From Bacteroidales bacterium (GTDB taxonomy: Bacteria > Bacteroidota > Bacteroidia > Bacteroidales > UBA932), in NCBI GenBank assembly GCA_015060225.1, contig SUYX01000015.1, forward strand, positions 1-49,650: DNA of 49,650 nucleotides. Reading direction: 5' to 3'. How positions within the stretch are numbered: the first letter of the stretch is position 1; each line of letters starts with the position of its first letter. Positions 18,601 through 40,692 of the stretch are shown one piece after another. A model generated the notes under the pieces. That model was not told the origin of the DNA, did no database searches, and was given only the letters and a program-made list of their open reading frames with translations. Made by a program: the position numbers and the translations under genes.

Positions 18601-19521
18601 TTACAATTTTTCAATTTCTTGTGTTGCAAGTCCGGTGCATTCTGCAATTGTTGTAAGGTCTATTCCTTTTGCTTTGAGTGATTTGGCAATTGAGTTTTTT
18701 TCTTCGGCTTTGCCTTCTTCTCTTCCTTCTGCTCTTCCTTTTTCTTCTCCTTTTACAGTTGCAAATTCAATACAGCTCATGGTGTCCATATAGTTTTTCA
18801 GGTCGCTTTCGTAGCGGATTCTGTCCATTTCAGATAATGAAGCTACATCTGCTGTGTCCAGAACCTTGTAGAACAGTTCTTTTGTGGCTTGAGGGAGATT
18901 TGTTTGGGCTACCTCGTTTTTCAATTGTTCTGTTGTTTTCATACCGTTTTGCATTTCTCTGAGCAAATATAGTAAAAATTCGTAGTTTGCATTGCACTCA
19001 TCAATGCTTTCAGCTTTAAGGCACGGCAGTTGCAACAGTATGATATTCAATTTGTCAGAGAATGCTTTATGTTCTTCAATGTCATATAGCTGTATATCCT
19101 TTCTCAGTTTTGGATCCTGCTCGAATGTGAAGTTCATCAGGCAGATAGAATATACTCTTTTGATATCCTTATAGTCCCATTGAGAGCCGCTTTTTCCCAT
19201 TCTGTCCATCAGTCTGCAGGTATAGTAAATTATTCTGTCTACAATATTTACAGTTTGGGTAGTCTGTACCTCAATTAGGAATCTGTCTTCGTTTGTGTCT
19301 TTACATATAATATCAAACACACACCCTTTAAGATTCTGTGCAGCCGGCAGGGATTCATTGTTCATAAATTGCACATCCACAATAGGAGCCTCAGGGTTTA
19401 GCAATATATTTAGGAATCCAATGAGATTAGGTTTGCTCTCTTCGGTAGCAAACAGATACTTGAAAGCCCAGTCCAGCAGCGGCTTCATTACTTTTCTTTC
19501 ATTCTTTTTCACAATTTCCAT
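18601..19521 (-). CDS. Rpn-type PD-(D/E)XK nuclease/transposase, copy 1
   Basis: 306 residues of the PD-(D/E)XK nuclease family transposase group (PDDEXK_2/Rpn). Family members are DNA nucleases linked to recombination and, in E. coli, to phage defence. The nuclease core is visible: 'KPLLDWAFKYLF' near the start, Asp70 in VFDIICKD, and Glu84-Val85-Gln86 in FLIEVQTTQ, the ExQ variant of the catalytic ExK. The helical middle ends at 'LKNYMDTMSCIEFATVKGEEKG', followed by a short charged (A/E)EG repeat and a conserved 33-residue tail with 'GIDLTTIAECTGL', which looks helix-turn-helix-like. This copy has the fewest repeat units and ends LATQEIEKL instead of LTIPEIEKL. It has its own promoter at 19549 and terminator at 18543. 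Confidence 0.85.
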   Translation of the reverse strand: MEIVKKNERKVMKPLLDWAFKYLFATEESKPNLIGFLNILLNPEAPIVDVQFMNNESLPAAQNLKGCVFDIICKDTNEDRFLIEVQTTQTVNIVDRIIYYTCRLMDRMGKSGSQWDYKDIKRVYSICLMNFTFEQDPKLRKDIQLYDIEEHKAFSDKLNIILLQLPCLKAESIDECNANYEFLLYLLREMQNGMKTTEQLKNEVAQTNLPQATKELFYKVLDTADVASLSEMDRIRYESDLKNYMDTMSCIEFATVKGEEKGRAEGREEGKAEEKNSIAKSLKAKGIDLTTIAECTGLATQEIEKL

Positions 19522-19548
19522 AGCACATGAATTTAACAGTTACAAGTG

Positions 19549-19579
19549 CAAACCTATTGATAGAGAACGTTAAATGAAA
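19549..19579 (-). promoter_or_regulatory. Promoter of Rpn copy 1
   Basis: On the minus strand TAGGTTTG (19556-19549) matches the -7 box TAnnTTTG, with TTTC at 19579-19576 as a near -33 box, 19 bases away. The predicted start near 19543 gives a leader of about 22 bases. The same -7 box is kept before all three copies. Confidence 0.6.
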
Positions 19580-19697
19580 GTTTTTGCGTATAATTTATCG
19601 GGATAATTTTTTTGGGAAAAAGCAAAAATGTGTGAAATGGAAATTTATGTAAGTTGTGGGGTGATGGGAGTTGTGTTGCCGTTTAACTCAAATAAAT

Positions 19698-19729
19698 AAC
19701 ACCCCACCGGATTTTGCCAGTAGGGTGTT
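19698..19729 (-). terminator. Hairpin after Rpn copy 2
   Basis: AACACCC pairs with GGGTGTT and the inner part pairs imperfectly (C-AC and GG against GT and CC). It lies about 20 bases beyond the stop of copy 2. It is followed on the minus strand by ATTTATTTGAG, a weak U-tract, so termination may be partial. Confidence 0.55.
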
Positions 19730-19748
19730 GTGTGTTATTGTTGTGTGT

Positions 19749-20705
19749 TTATAATTTTTCAATTTCTGGTATTGTAAGTCCGGTGCATTCTGCAATTGTT
19801 GTAAGGTCTATTCCTTTTGTTTTGAGTGTTTTTGCAATTGAGGTTTTTTCTTCGGCTCTTCCTTCTTTTCGTCCTTCTTTTATTCCTTCTTTTATTCCTT
19901 CTTTTATTCCTTCTTCTCTTCCTTTTTCTTCTCCTTTGACGGTTGCAAATTCAATGCAGCTCATTGTGTCCATATAGTTTTTCAGGTCGCTTTCGTAGCG
20001 GATTCTGTCCATTTCAGATAAAGAGGCTACATCTGCTGTGTCCAGAACCTTGTAGAACAGTTCTTTTGTGGCTTGAGGGAGATTTGTTTTGGCTACCTCG
20101 TTTTTCAATTGTTCTGTTGTTTTCATACCGTTTTGCATTTCTTTGAGCAAATATAGTAAAAATTCATAGTTTGCATTGCACTCATCAATGCTTTCAGCTT
20201 TAAGGCACGGCAGTTGCAACAGTATGATATTCAATTTGTCAGAGAAAGCTTTATGCTCTTCAATGTCATATAGCTGTATATCCTTTCTCAGTTTGGGATC
20301 CTGCTCAAATGTGAAGTTCATCAGGCAGATAGAATATACTCTCTTAATGTCCTTATAGTCCCATTCAGATCCGCTTTTTCCCATTCTGTCCATCAGTCTG
20401 CAGGTATAGTAAATTATTCTGTCTACAATATATACAGTTTGTGTTGTCTGTACCTCAATTAGGAATCTGTCTTCGTTTGTGTCTTTACATATAATATCAA
20501 ACACACACCCTTTAAGATTCTGTGCAGCCGGCAGGGATTCATTGTTCATAAATTGCACATCCACAATAGGAGCCTCAGGGTTTAGCAATATATTTAGGAA
20601 TCCAATAAGATTAGGTTTGCTCTCTTCGGTAGCAAACAGATACTTGAAAGCCCAGTCCAGCAACGGCTTCATTACTTTTCTTTCATTCTTTTTCACAATT
20701 TCCAT
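19749..20705 (-). CDS. Rpn-type PD-(D/E)XK nuclease/transposase, copy 2
   Basis: 318 residues, the longest of the three copies. Residues 1-265 are nearly identical to copies 1 and 3, including Asp70 and Glu84/Gln86 of the nuclease site; a visible change is TVYIVDRI for TVNIVDRI. The difference lies in the charged repeat after 'KGEEKG': REEG, then IKEG three times, then RKEG and RAEEK. It thus carries three four-residue units more than copy 1. The IKEG stretch is encoded by perfect 12-bp repeats at 19873-19908. Promoter at 20734 and hairpin at 19698 make it a separate transcription unit. The intact reading frame and catalytic residues argue against a pseudogene. Confidence 0.85.
   Translation of the reverse strand: MEIVKKNERKVMKPLLDWAFKYLFATEESKPNLIGFLNILLNPEAPIVDVQFMNNESLPAAQNLKGCVFDIICKDTNEDRFLIEVQTTQTVYIVDRIIYYTCRLMDRMGKSGSEWDYKDIKRVYSICLMNFTFEQDPKLRKDIQLYDIEEHKAFSDKLNIILLQLPCLKAESIDECNANYEFLLYLLKEMQNGMKTTEQLKNEVAKTNLPQATKELFYKVLDTADVASLSEMDRIRYESDLKNYMDTMSCIEFATVKGEEKGREEGIKEGIKEGIKEGRKEGRAEEKTSIAKTLKTKGIDLTTIAECTGLTIPEIEKL
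19873..19908 (-). repeat. 12-bp coding minisatellite in Rpn copy 2
   Basis: Three perfect copies of CCTTCTTTTATT (plus strand), flanked by near-copies at 19861 and 19909. Each encodes IKEG on the minus strand. Copy 3 has one perfect and several variant units at 21053-21100; copy 1 has only variants at 18713-18736. Gain or loss of 12 bp keeps the frame, so this tract can vary protein length without breaking it. Confidence 0.85.
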
Positions 20706-20733
20706 AGCACATGATTTTTATTAGTTGTATGTG

Positions 20734-20764
20734 CAAACCTATTTATTGATGAGTATAAATGAAA
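20734..20764 (-). promoter_or_regulatory. Promoter of Rpn copy 2
   Basis: TAGGTTTG on the minus strand (20741-20734) with TTTC 19 bases upstream (20764-20761), the same arrangement as before copy 1. The leader to the ATG at 20705 is about 23 bases. Confidence 0.6.
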
Positions 20765-20882
20765 GCTTTTGCGTGTAATTTATCGGGATAATTTTTTTTG
20801 GAAAAAGCAAAAATGTATGAAAAGGAAATTTATGTTAGTTGTGGGGTGATGGGAGTTGTGTTGTCGTTTAACTCAAATAAAT

Positions 20883-20914
20883 AACACCCCACCGGATTTT
20901 GCCAGTAGGGTGTT
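20883..20914 (-). terminator. Hairpin after Rpn copy 3
   Basis: AACACCC (20883-20889) pairs with GGGTGTT (20908-20914), the same structure as after copy 2, placed about 27 bases beyond the stop at 20941. Only a weak T-rich tail follows on the minus strand. Confidence 0.55.
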
Positions 20915-20940
20915 GTGTGTTATTGTTGTGTGTTGTGAGT

Positions 20941-21885
20941 TTACAATTTTTCAATTTCTGGTATTGTAAGTCCGGTGCATTCTGCAATTGTTGTAAGGTC
21001 TATTCCTTTTGTTTTGAGTGATTTGGCAATTGAGGTTTTTTCTTCGGCTTTTCCTTCTTTTCGTCCTTCTTTTATTCCTTCTTCTCGTCCTTCGGCTCTT
21101 CCTTTTTCTTCTCCTTTTACAGTTGCAAATTCAATGCAGCTCATTGTGTCCATATAGTTTTTCAGGTCGCTTTCGTAGCGGATTCTGTCCATTTCAGATA
21201 AAGAGGCTACATCTGCTGTGTCCAGAACCTTGTAGAACAGTTCTTTTGTGGCTTGAGGGAGATTTGTTTGGGCTACCTCGTTTTTCAATTGTTCTGTTGT
21301 TTTCATACCGTTTTGCATTTCTCTGAGCAAATATAGTAAAAATTCGTAGTTTGCATTGCACTCATCAATGCTTTCAGCTTTGAGGCACGGCAGTTGCAAC
21401 AGAATGATATTCAATTTGTCAGAGAATGCTTTATGTTCTTCAATGTCATATAGCTGTATATCCTTTCTAAGTTTGGGATCCTGCTCGAATGTGAAGTTCA
21501 TCAGGCAGATAGAATATACTCTTTTGATATCCTTATAGTCCCATTCAGATCCGCTTTTTCCCATTCTGTCCATCAGTCTGCAGGTATAGTAAATTATTCT
21601 GTCTACAATATTTACAGTTTGGGTAGTCTGTACTTCAATTAGGAATCTGTCTTCGTTTGCATCTTTACAAATGATATCAAACAGACATCCTTTAAGATTT
21701 TGAGCGGCTGGCAGTGATTCATTGTTCATGAATTGTACATCTACAATAGGAGCCTCAGGGTTGAGCAATATATTTAGGAATCCAATAAGATTAGGTTTGC
21801 TCTCTTCGGTAGCAAACAGATACTTGAAAGCCCAATCCAGCAACGGCTTCATTACTTTTCTTTCATTCTTTTTCACAATTTCCAT
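20941..21885 (-). CDS. Rpn-type PD-(D/E)XK nuclease/transposase, copy 3
   Basis: 314 residues from the ATG at 21885. An in-frame ATG ten codons earlier (21915) is rejected because it lies inside the -7 promoter box (21913-21920) and because the other two copies start at the equivalent MEIVKKN. The catalytic residues Asp70 and Glu84-Val-Gln86 are present; small differences are GCLFDIICKDANED for GCVFDIICKDTNED. Its charged repeat reads RAEG, REEG, IKEG, RKEG, KAEEK, two units more than copy 1 and one fewer than copy 2. It is divergent from the nucleotidyltransferase gene at 22074, with about 150 bases of shared control region between their promoters. Confidence 0.85.
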   Translation of the reverse strand: MEIVKKNERKVMKPLLDWAFKYLFATEESKPNLIGFLNILLNPEAPIVDVQFMNNESLPAAQNLKGCLFDIICKDANEDRFLIEVQTTQTVNIVDRIIYYTCRLMDRMGKSGSEWDYKDIKRVYSICLMNFTFEQDPKLRKDIQLYDIEEHKAFSDKLNIILLQLPCLKAESIDECNANYEFLLYLLREMQNGMKTTEQLKNEVAQTNLPQATKELFYKVLDTADVASLSEMDRIRYESDLKNYMDTMSCIEFATVKGEEKGRAEGREEGIKEGRKEGKAEEKTSIAKSLKTKGIDLTTIAECTGLTIPEIEKL

Positions 21886-21912
21886 AGCACGTGATTTTAT
21901 CAGTTGTATGTG

Positions 21913-21943
21913 CAAACCTATTGATAGAGAACGTTAAATAAAA
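21913..21943 (-). promoter_or_regulatory. Promoter of Rpn copy 3
   Basis: TAGGTTTG on the minus strand (21920-21913), identical to the other copies; the -33 position is only T-rich here (TTTT) because one base differs. Start near 21907, leader about 22 bases. The box decides the start codon of copy 3. Confidence 0.55.
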
Positions 21944-33545: not shown

Positions 33546-33574
33546 GGGGAACATTTGCGTCTGATTTTGTTCCC
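33546..33574. repeat. Solitary copy of the RAYT-associated palindrome
   Basis: GGGGAACATTTGCG and, 15 bases later, TGTTCCC reproduce the 30-base palindromic core (GGGGAACATTT...GATT.TGTTCCCC) of the arrays at 38480 and 39827. It lies alone in the 306-base gap between the V-ATPase and mmd operons. No 51-bp neighbours are present; the other bases of the gap, apart from promoter and terminator, show nothing. Confidence 0.75.
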
Positions 33575-33676
33575 TTGCGTACTGGTGATTTCTATCGGGA
33601 GTATTTGTGGCAGGTTTTGTCGGGAGGAATGTTTGTGAGATAGATTGTGGATTTTGTTTTTTGTGCGTGTATAAAA

Positions 33677-38479: not shown

Positions 38480-38796
38480 CTATCTTTATTTATTACGATT
38501 TTGTTCCCGATGGTGGCAATTTGTGTTGCTGGGGAACATTTCTCTGCGATTTTGTTCCCCGAGGTGGCAATTTGTGTCGCTGGGGAACATTTCCCTGCGA
38601 TTTTGTTCCCGATTGCGGAAATTTGCGTTGTTGGGGAACATTTCTCTGCGATTCCGTTCCCCGGGGTGGCAATTTGTGTTGCTGGGGAACATTTCCCTGC
38701 GATTTTGTTCCCCGAGGTGGCAATTTGTGGTGTCAGGGAACATTTCTCTGTGATTCCGTTCCCCGAGGCGGCATTCTGTTGTGCTGGGGAACATTT
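38480..38796. repeat. Palindromic 51-bp repeat array 1 (RAYT-associated)
   Basis: Five full units begin at 38531, 38582, 38633, 38684 and 38735, each exactly 51 bases apart. A degenerate right half precedes them (from about 38480) and a left half-unit (38786-38796) ends 4 bases before the transposase stop codon. Each unit has a core GGGGAACATTTCTCTGCGAT.. closing with TGTTCCCC (8-bp arms, 14-base loop) and a 21-base linker such as GAGGTGGCAATTTGTGTTGCT. The linkers are similar to each other, not unique. Orientation matches array 2. Confidence 0.93.
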
Positions 38797-38800
38797 ACTT

Positions 38801-39706
38801 TTAGCTGTCGGGAAACAATTCATTTAAAATTGCCATTTCCAGATGTAGCGTTCGCGATATTTGTTTGTTGCTGGCGTTGTAATTGAAATGCAATTCTTTT
38901 GCTATCTCCATTTTCTGTTCCGGAGAGAGAGATTTTGGCGGCATTTCAAATTTTTTGATACCGAGCGAGTATATTGCACTGTAAATTTCGTCATCTGTGC
39001 AAATTACCTTGTCTCCTAATTCTCTTGCAATTTCACTGAATGTTTCCACTCTTCTGGAAATAAGGTTAAAATATTGGTGTGCATCTCTGAACAGTTGCAT
39101 GGCACTTTTAATTTTGACATAACATTCCGGTGATATATAATCTTCTGTAAAATAGAAGTTTTCAGGAAATTCATTATAATGTGTATGAAAAATTTTTCTC
39201 TTGAGCCTTATAGGAATTTTTCCTATGCCAACACGTATTTTTTCTGATGAGGAGTAATTGAAGAAATATTTGTTGGCACCCCAAGGATATGAGAACGGAT
39301 TATAGTCTCTGTTTACTAGATATCCATTTCTGTTTACATAAGTTATAGAATTGCGTAAATAATTGACATCGTTTATTCTAAAAATACTTGGACTGAAATT
39401 TTCCAATAATTTGGAATCTCCTTTAAGTGCATAGTATTTACTCATCCTTTTCTTGAATTCATTAAAAAATCCAATTGTATTTTCTTCATTGCCTTCAATT
39501 ATAAAATGAACATGGTTGCTCATCAACTGGAATGTATAAATACTTATACATTTCCTGAAGATACCTGCACATAAAGCAACTATGTTCATCCCAAATACAT
39601 ACTCTTCCCTATTGCGGAAAATGATTGACTGCATTTCCCCAGGAGTGCACACATGCCAAAATTCTTTTCCACCATGCAATTTTTTGTCATAACCGGCTAC
39701 TTTCAT
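38801..39706 (-). CDS. REP-associated tyrosine transposase (RAYT, Y1 HUH family)
   Basis: 301 residues from the ATG at 39706; an in-frame TTG at 39715 is less likely. The Y1 transposase fold is recognisable: 'FTQ'-equivalent 'YTFQLMSNHVHFIIEG' with the HUH pair His65-x-His67, and the candidate catalytic Tyr123 in 'NSITYVNRNGY'. The last 90 residues are an added helical domain ('SRRVETFSEIARELGD', 'SLSPEQKMEIAKELHFNYNASNKQISRTLHLE') that looks like a DNA-binding helix-turn-helix. RAYTs are single-copy, IS200/IS605-related enzymes that act on REP palindromes. Here palindromic arrays lie on both sides, starting 121 bases before the ATG and ending at the stop. The frame is intact and motifs present, so it may be active. 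No promoter with good consensus was found. Confidence 0.85.
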   Translation of the reverse strand: MKVAGYDKKLHGGKEFWHVCTPGEMQSIIFRNREEYVFGMNIVALCAGIFRKCISIYTFQLMSNHVHFIIEGNEENTIGFFNEFKKRMSKYYALKGDSKLLENFSPSIFRINDVNYLRNSITYVNRNGYLVNRDYNPFSYPWGANKYFFNYSSSEKIRVGIGKIPIRLKRKIFHTHYNEFPENFYFTEDYISPECYVKIKSAMQLFRDAHQYFNLISRRVETFSEIARELGDKVICTDDEIYSAIYSLGIKKFEMPPKSLSPEQKMEIAKELHFNYNASNKQISRTLHLEMAILNELFPDS

Positions 39707-39826
39707 TTTCTCCAAATTATTGTTTGCACAACATTACACCATTTTTTCCCGATATTATATCTGATTTAGAAATTTCTTTGTTACCTCAAGTAACTTTTTC
39801 TCTTTTTGGCATTTGCTTTTTTTGTT

Positions 39827-40541
39827 GGGGAACATTTCCCTGCAATTTTGTTCCCCAAGGTGTCATTTTGTGCAGTTGTGGAACATTTATCCGCGATTTT
39901 GTTCCCCAAGGTGGAAATTTGCGTTGTTGGGGAACATTTCTCTGTGATTCCGTTCCCCGAGGTGGCATTCTGTTGTGTCGGGGAACATTTCTCTGTGATT
40001 CTATTCCCCAAGGTGGCATTCTGTTGTGTCGGGGAACATTTCTCCGCTATTCTGTTTCCCAGGGTGTCATTTTGTGGTGTCAGGGGAACATTTCCCTGCG
40101 ATTTTGTTCCCTGAGGTGGCAATTTGTGTTGCTGGGGAACATTTCTTTGCGATTCTGTTCCCGATAGTGGAAATTTGTGTTGTTGGGGAACATTTCTCTG
40201 TGATTCTGTTCCCCAAGGTGGCATTTTGTTGTGTTGGGGAACATTTCTCTGCGATTCTGTTCCCGATAGTGGAAATTTGCGTTGTTTGGGAACATTTCTC
40301 TGTGATTCTGTTCCCCAAGGTGGCATTTTGTTGTGTCGGGTAACATTTCCCTGCGATTTTGTTCCCCGAGGTGGAAATTTGTGTTGCTGGGGAACATTTC
40401 TTTGCGATTCTGTTCCCGATAGTGGAAATTTGCGTTGTTTGGGAACATTTCTCTGCGATTCTGTTCCCCAGGGTGTCATTTTGTGCAGTTGTGGAACATT
40501 TCTCTGCGATTCCGTTCCCCGAGGTGGCATTCTGTTGTGCC
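39827..40541. repeat. Palindromic 51-bp repeat array 2 (RAYT-associated)
   Basis: Fourteen units begin at 39827, 39878, 39929, 39980, 40031, 40083, 40134, 40185, 40236, 40287, 40338, 40389, 40440 and 40491. Thirteen spacings are 51 bases except one of 52 (40031 to 40083). Cores follow GGGGAACATTT-N-TGTTCCCC with single changes (GTGGAACA, TGGGAACA, GGGTAACA). Linkers fall into a few recurring types: GAGGTGGCAATTTGTGTTGC, GATAGTGGAAATTTGTGTTG, AAGGTGGCATTTTGTTGTG and GGGTGTCATTTTGTGCAGTT. Because 51 is divisible by three, long frames stay open on both strands, but these have no codon bias or start context and are not called as genes. Confidence 0.93.
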
Positions 40542-40610: not shown

Positions 40611-40692
40611 AAATCTGGAGATTCTGGAAAGTCAGGAAAGTCAGGGGAATCAGGGGAATCAGGGGAATAGGTAGGGTAGGGGTGCTATAAAA

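Follow-up and report, generated by a model that had tools for sequence, protein, structure and literature searches.

The stretch of DNA analyzed here, hereafter the window, comprises 49,650 nucleotides of a Bacteroidales bacterium (assembly GCA_015060225.1, contig SUYX01000015.1, positions 1 to 49,650 of the forward strand). It contains a gene resembling a repetitive extragenic palindromic (REP)-associated tyrosine transposase (RAYT), a nuclease of the Y1/HUH type with a single conserved tyrosine, bracketed by two tandem arrays of palindromic, hairpin-forming repeats. Comparison with related genomes revealed that genes of this lineage often adjoin tandem hairpin arrays, and that the two flanks of a gene, together with short arrays elsewhere in its genome, mostly share its repeat. 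Between genes, the repeat sequence is replaced wholly, and the unit still measures 51 or 52 bp. Array length varies between relatives, in several cases by whole units.

The gene and its arrays in the window

The gene (38801..39706, minus strand) encodes 301 residues from an ATG at 39706, or 304 from a TTG at 39715. An NHVH motif (residues 64–67; 39506..39517, minus strand) and the candidate catalytic Tyr123 (39338..39340, minus strand) are recognizable, and N64, H65, H67 and Y123 are unchanged across 23 aligned homologues. The best fold match in the PDB is 4er8, E. coli TnpA_REP bound to a REP hairpin, and the core adopts the Y1 HUH fold of RAYT proteins; the original prediction, made from the letters alone, of a Y1/HUH gene with these motifs is thereby borne out. 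The protein scores below the curated cut-offs of Pfam Y1_Tnp (17.2 against 23 bits) and NCBIfam NF047646 (14.2 against 80 bits), and therefore falls outside those models; its kinship rests on fold and motifs. Y1_Tnp matches at E <= 0.1 are found in 15 of the 23 homologues, a profile search against PDB sequences gave no match under E 0.07, and PADLOC gave none. Residues 205–301 (38804..39094, minus strand) form a C-terminal domain modeled as five helices (predicted local distance difference test score, pLDDT, 79). This extension had been foreseen as DNA-binding: the extension is present, but its best PDB match has an E-value of 1.6 and no match to a DNA-binding fold is significant. Short local matches include DNA-binding domains (DeoR, LsrR) among others, and the modeled domain may possibly bind DNA.

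The left array (38496..38796) contains five full 51-bp hairpin units (38531–38785) with a half palindrome at either end; the right array (39827..40541) contains 14 full units, each of 51 bp but one of 52 (40031–40082). No strand is assigned to either. Full units were counted from each GGGGAACA, and Tandem Repeats Finder (TRF) places 51-bp arrays at 38496–38796 (5.9 copies) and 39822–40535 (14.0 copies), with an additional 102-bp period in the left one. Each unit is built by an imperfect 30-bp palindrome, GGGGAACA-14 nt-TGTTCCCC, and a 21-bp spacer. The predicted 5 + 14 units and the division into a palindrome of about 30 bases and a 21-base linker are both confirmed; the arrays had also been called tandem and perfectly periodic, and the second term is nearly right, because of the one 52-bp unit, the sole exception to a spacing of 51 in both arrays, and the 102-bp period. 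A solitary palindrome of the same kind (GGGGAACA..TGTTCCCT, 33546..33575, no strand assigned) occurs without spacer or array.

In the 19 window units, standard pairs fill 90.1% of pair cells, and 28–68% after sliding one to three columns. DNA folding z-scores range from -1.4 to -2.6 for four single-unit strands; a double unit scores -2.9 on one strand and -3.6 on the other. Two consecutive units have an alternative fold, one long nested hairpin, and the array can therefore be read as a miniature bacterial interspersed mosaic element (BIME). No pair in the 19 units shows two-sided change and all shuffles are equally good; thus covariation gives no support inside the window. As predicted, the palindrome lacks GTAG: neither GTAG nor GTGG, the GT[AG]G foot of a canonical REP, adjoins it in the 19 aligned units. 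Rfam has no match in the window.

The gene and arrays occupy 2,401 bp between an epimerase gene (TIGR03081) and yebC (NF009044). In relatives, these two genes are adjacent without a RAYT match at 24 of 29 loci, yebC lying outside the flank taken at the other five; the gene and arrays are therefore an addition at this otherwise empty site. Seven intergenic gaps were read: those of genomes G009, G012, G018 and G019 measure 117–147 bp, that of G037 184 bp and that of G020 197 bp. The seventh, in G007, measures 322 bp and contains three GGGGAACA-type hairpins at 51-bp spacing with no RAYT, so repeats can exist at the site without the gene. In a control of 30 epimerase loci, a tandem array of period >=20 was found at two, namely the window and G007. 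Directly beyond the right array, in a stretch with no counterpart in the relatives' gaps, lies a perfect 9-bp tandem repeat, TCAGGGGAA (3.1 copies, 40641–40668).

A covariance model of the 19 units matched 26 places in the window's own genome (the 19, one at an array edge, and six on contigs C39, C3 and C40), 18 places in G007 and one in G019; the remaining 36 genomes of the genus gave no match. The scoring covered 150 of 606 to 1808 first-look candidates per genome (150 of 1768 in the own genome), so weak copies could have escaped it. Canonical REP sequences usually exceed 100 copies per genome (PMC2817692), a number far above the 26 matches here, 19 of them in the window. Copies belonging to the resident gene thus occur elsewhere in its genome, in small number and with G007 as a caveat. 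The expectation that the palindrome would be dispersed and limited to genomes carrying the gene is partly borne out: the scored candidates of the 36 other genomes gave no match, but dispersed copies are few and 18 lie in G007, which has no detected gene.

Distribution of the lineage and its arrays

The window's own genome has six such genes among the eight matches listed for the window protein, each adjoining a tandem array of different sequence. By TRF, the arrays beside the other five have periods of 51 bp (C27), 51 on both sides (C20), 104 and 52/104 (C41), 51 and 118 (C31), and 51/25 and 82 (C40), so that each gene has at least one adjoining array of 51/52 bp (or 104). A seventh, weaker homologue is located on C62. 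Across the genus, 26 of 39 genomes have a match to the window protein. A first set of 60 stretches, 57 around matches and three from genomes without one, yielded 62 loci with an open reading frame (ORF), including the window and the five other own-genome places (L136–L139 are without match). For a second set, named genomes were scanned; >592 stretches matched, 310 were confirmed, the best 80 were kept and eight duplicates were dropped, leaving 72. All assemblies are drafts, in which array length can be wrong. The relatives that have names are metagenome genomes of Bacteroidales; many of them come from animal guts, and Candidatus Cryptobacteroides and Candidatus Egerieousia are included.

In the first set, 25 of the 62 genes have an array of 50–53 bp, or of a multiple of that length, no more than 600 bp away; in the second set, this holds for 28 of the 72 loci. 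Arrays of 50–53 bp make up 32 of 73 near the genes (70,977 bp beside 62 genes), two of eight in an own-genome control (343,902 bp, the starts of 20 contigs), and none of six in seven genomes without a gene match (387,625 bp). In four RAYT-rich genomes, away from known genes, they make up eight of 19 (400,000 bp). The second set gave 40 of 58 near the gene (83,466 bp) versus four of 27 further out (227,834 bp). When ten control arrays in RAYT-bearing genomes were compared with known units, nine matched RAYT-flank units of their own genome best, with one near tie (24 vs 25); the same holds for five of six further distal arrays, picked for likeness to known units. Both sides carry arrays in 19 of the 53 genes with 50–53-bp arrays, as in the window, and in 36 of 64 genes without such an array, the flanks still share a repeat above the 99th percentile of mismatched flanks.

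A threshold of E <= 1e-20 places the lineage in 92 of 199 genomes sampled within the window's family and in two of 295 sampled across the order, both of them members of that family; within these samples, it is confined to one family of Bacteroidales, uncultured bacteria of the gut. Six of 20 loci from other genera of the family have a 50–53-bp array, at least four of them overlapping the second set and thus not independent. Elsewhere in the order, beyond this family, 27 loci with weak Y1 matches were compared and none has one. The proposal of a distinct Bacteroidales REP-RAYT type is partly supported: the lineage is family-restricted in these samples and has private tandem arrays, but under half of the homologues have them.

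Arrays of 41–48 bp lie beside a few RAYTs of other lineages of the order, and these comparisons of sequence suggest that other lineages may keep other periods. The RAYT-like gene at L373 (G283:C77, ORF 1285-2226; another Bacteroidales family, with NHFH and YIHQNP) carries palindromic arrays of 47/48 bp in three places: at the 5' end, in-frame inside the ORF, and behind the gene. Arrays of 41 bp lie upstream of L388 (YIHQNP), and L379 is accompanied by one of 43 bp.

Repeat turnover, unit length and array growth

The two flanks of one gene are alike (median score 78, lowest 15, in 19 genes with both sides; in four of these the sides match better when inverted), and the arrays of different genes are unlike (median 12, 95th percentile 19, in 53 genes). 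Unit likeness is at background (median 12–14) below 60% protein identity and high in eight of ten pairs at >=70%; a Mantel test gave r 0.258, a value that none of 2000 permutations reached. Close RAYTs with unlike surroundings were seen at L256/L271 (84% protein identity) and L209/L219 (91% DNA identity), where likeness stops ~40–85 bp before the ORF and at the ORF end; judging from these alignments, the gene possibly moves without its arrays.

The period is far less variable. Within the 50–53 selection, 57 of 72 side-arrays have period 51, 13 have 52 and two have 50; when arrays of every period are counted, 51 remains the most frequent single value (14 of 73 in the first set, 21 of 58 in the second). 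Arms with >=7/8 complementary bases occur in 37 of 49 units, versus 6.4 expected, after four near-duplicates were dropped. A fixed dyad geometry common to all units was rejected, since the arm distance ranges from 15 to 36. Period 51 versus 52 was also considered as a clean clade trait, for which the signal is weak (10 changes against a shuffled mean of 12.1; nine of 300 shuffles as low).

These periods bear on two alternative explanations. That the arrays are a coding repeat or an assembly artefact is very improbable: 51 is divisible by three and several long ORFs cross the window arrays, but period 52 occurs in 13 of 72 side-arrays and would shift the frame at every unit, so the coding repeat is rejected; the draft assemblies may give wrong array lengths, but units differ within arrays and arrays recur in many separate assemblies. 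We also regard as unlikely an explanation by helical register. In it, a protein, perhaps the RAYT via its C-terminal domain, would bind double-stranded DNA on the same face at every unit, and the arrays would be less the products of transposition than platforms for binding or sites of regulation. Periods of 51 and 52 bp are near five DNA turns, and the units are dyad-symmetric like dimer operator sites; yet the other distances seen (36 and 42 as spacings; 82, 93 and 118 as periods) give no clear 10.4-bp series, the arm distance within units is variable, and the C-terminal domain lacks a significant DNA-binding match.

Array length was compared in eight aligned groups of near relatives. Whole-unit differences were found in three: 408 bp = 8x51 (L216/L227), 102 bp = 2x51 (L241/L250, 5' side) and 52 bp (L257/L275). 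Three other groups are without a 50–53-bp array. At one syntenic place, L100, L104 and L108 have three, one and two hairpins with two, no and one spacers directly behind the gene, as aligned by eye, the program alignment being unclean. Distal copies tend to consist of n hairpins and n-1 spacers, the hairpin being outermost and the spacer inside. The comparison of array lengths that had been proposed as a check thus gave several whole-unit differences, though not all differences are of this kind.

Ordinary slippage or unequal recombination could also size the arrays, the RAYT at most seeding single hairpins and the 51/52-bp period being an ancestral legacy kept by homogenization. The higher-order periods it leads one to expect (102, 104 and 153 bp) are present, likeness inside distal arrays is high (TRF matches of 97% at L044 and 93% at L045), and a many-unit array would shrink to one hairpin, as at L104. 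Against this, unit sequences are unrecognizable between most genes and the period is still 51/52, whereas unconstrained indels should spread the period too; moreover, the arrays concentrate beside one kind of gene. We find this explanation rather doubtful.

Our preferred reading, which we hold to be probable though well short of certain, is that the locus is a REPtron. In this view, a TnpA_REP-like gene for an HUH/Tyr nuclease has been domesticated and is enclosed by hairpin repeats of its own; it belongs to a family-restricted lineage in which the arrays hold to a 51/52-bp register, as though the repeat were measured out, perhaps by the enzyme itself. We infer binding, cutting and measuring because TnpA_REP is reported to cleave and rejoin REP sequences (PMC6006769). 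The RAYT would bind hairpins where the DNA is single-stranded, probably in the template of the lagging strand, and would nick and rejoin equivalent places of adjacent units, removing or adding whole units; the same activity may seed hairpins at new intergenic sites. A fixed spacing would let a RAYT dimer hold two adjacent hairpins, and homogenization of arrays is probably aided by ordinary recombination between copies. We tentatively suggest that the dimer acts as a molecular ruler, holding two adjacent single-stranded hairpins at a fixed distance and cutting and rejoining exactly one unit as a 51- or 52-nt single-stranded circle. Arrays would then grow and shrink by the enzyme, the protein would set the period, the repeat would drift freely, and the period would differ in other RAYT lineages of the order.

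Several observations weigh against the REPtron reading. No such array lies within 600 bp of 37 of 62 first-set and 44 of 72 second-set genes, and a hairpin at p <= 0.05 is seen in 40 of 72 single units. Spacings of 36, 82, 118 and 42 + 51 = 93 exist. Two of the ten pairs at >=70% protein identity (L271/L256 and L214/L208) have unlike repeats. The pair L241/L250 has further differences of 27 and 44 bp at its 3' side, and the pair L096/L097 shows several length differences that do not correspond to whole units. Dispersed copies of the window repeat number seven model matches beyond the 19, and G007 has repeats with no cognate gene detected in its assembly and no RAYT in the stretches read. The G007 matches are weak (22–30 bits) and are partly a related GGGCACA repeat in 93-bp units (51 + 42), resembling the array beside G019 gene L084. 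The cognate gene was possibly lost in the G007 assembly, because contigs C10, C31 and C23 end inside arrays. On these contigs (L340, L341 and L342, respectively), the GGGCACA repeat forms 93-bp (51 + 42), 144- and 237-bp higher-order units that reach the contig ends.

A RAYT lineage with several genes per genome, private repeats and a common unit length is a directly testable system, and orthologous places with 1, 2, 3 and ~10 units, together with empty and repeat-only sites, offer a natural series on array birth.

Other repeats were noted in the course of the analysis. The word TGTCGGGA has 135 copies in 393,552 bp of the genome (permuted words: median 7, maximum 32), and its frequent longer form TTGTCGGGA has 90 (permuted maximum 12). 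In the window, TGTCGGGA occurs at 1995, 5804, 7254, 7314, 13685, 16810, 22975, 24581, 29509, 33618, 38806, 41343, 43451, 43735 and 46469; it is both intragenic and intergenic, Chi- or uptake-signal-like. The motif AAAAAGAGAAA, upstream of several RAYT genes, has three copies in the same 393,552 bp, where permuted words have a median of 1 and a maximum of 10. At 18601–21915 (minus strand), three adjacent ORFs of 306, 318 and 324 residues, each with TTCCTTCTT-type repeats, look like tandem paralogues.

Comparison with known REP-RAYT systems

REPtrons, BIMEs and tandem REP clusters beside RAYTs are already known (PMC6006769; PMC3116915), and how REP sequences spread has been called poorly understood (PMC8266576). 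Among open-licence PMC titles and abstract openings, no 51/52-bp tandem repeats beside Bacteroidales RAYTs were found, which is weak evidence of absence, as most subscription papers lie outside; a RAYT lineage with unrelated repeats sharing one period was likewise not found in the open literature.

The E. coli TnpA_REP REPtron (RAYT subclass 2.2; PDB 4er8) shares with the window its core fold, its HUH and Tyr motifs, and hairpin repeats of its own that flank the gene and occur elsewhere in the genome. The window protein is longer, with a C-terminal helical domain, and its unit is without the GT[AG]G foot described for canonical REP hairpins (PMC6006769). Here, the repeats are in tandem at 51/52 bp with few copies elsewhere, and one genome holds several genes, with a separate repeat for each.

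RAYT subclass 2.6 (Bertels group 5) also has features in common with the window: as described in PMC6006769, it is found in Bacteroidetes, its repeats lack GT[AG]G, and its NH[LIV]H agrees with NHVH. Those repeats have atypical secondary structures and copies elsewhere in the genome (PMC6006769). The Tyr motif given there, YIH[QN]NP, differs from Y[VI]NRN or YVQMN here, a comparison made by description only, and the word 'tandem' is absent from the main text of that paper.

The third comparison is with Pseudomonas fluorescens SBW25, whose BIMEs and clusters of REP sequences and REPINs (REP doublets forming hairpins) form ordered tandem REP arrays, with a repeat cluster beside each of three RAYTs (PMC3116915). 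The window array, alternating GGGGAACA and TGTTCCCC with 14- and 21-nt linkers, reads as a miniature BIME. For SBW25, spacings of 112 and 72 bp are given, together 184 (PMC3116915), compared with 8-bp half-sites and a 51/52-bp unit here; and, unlike the SBW25 arrangement described in that paper, one period is held here by many genes with unrelated repeats.
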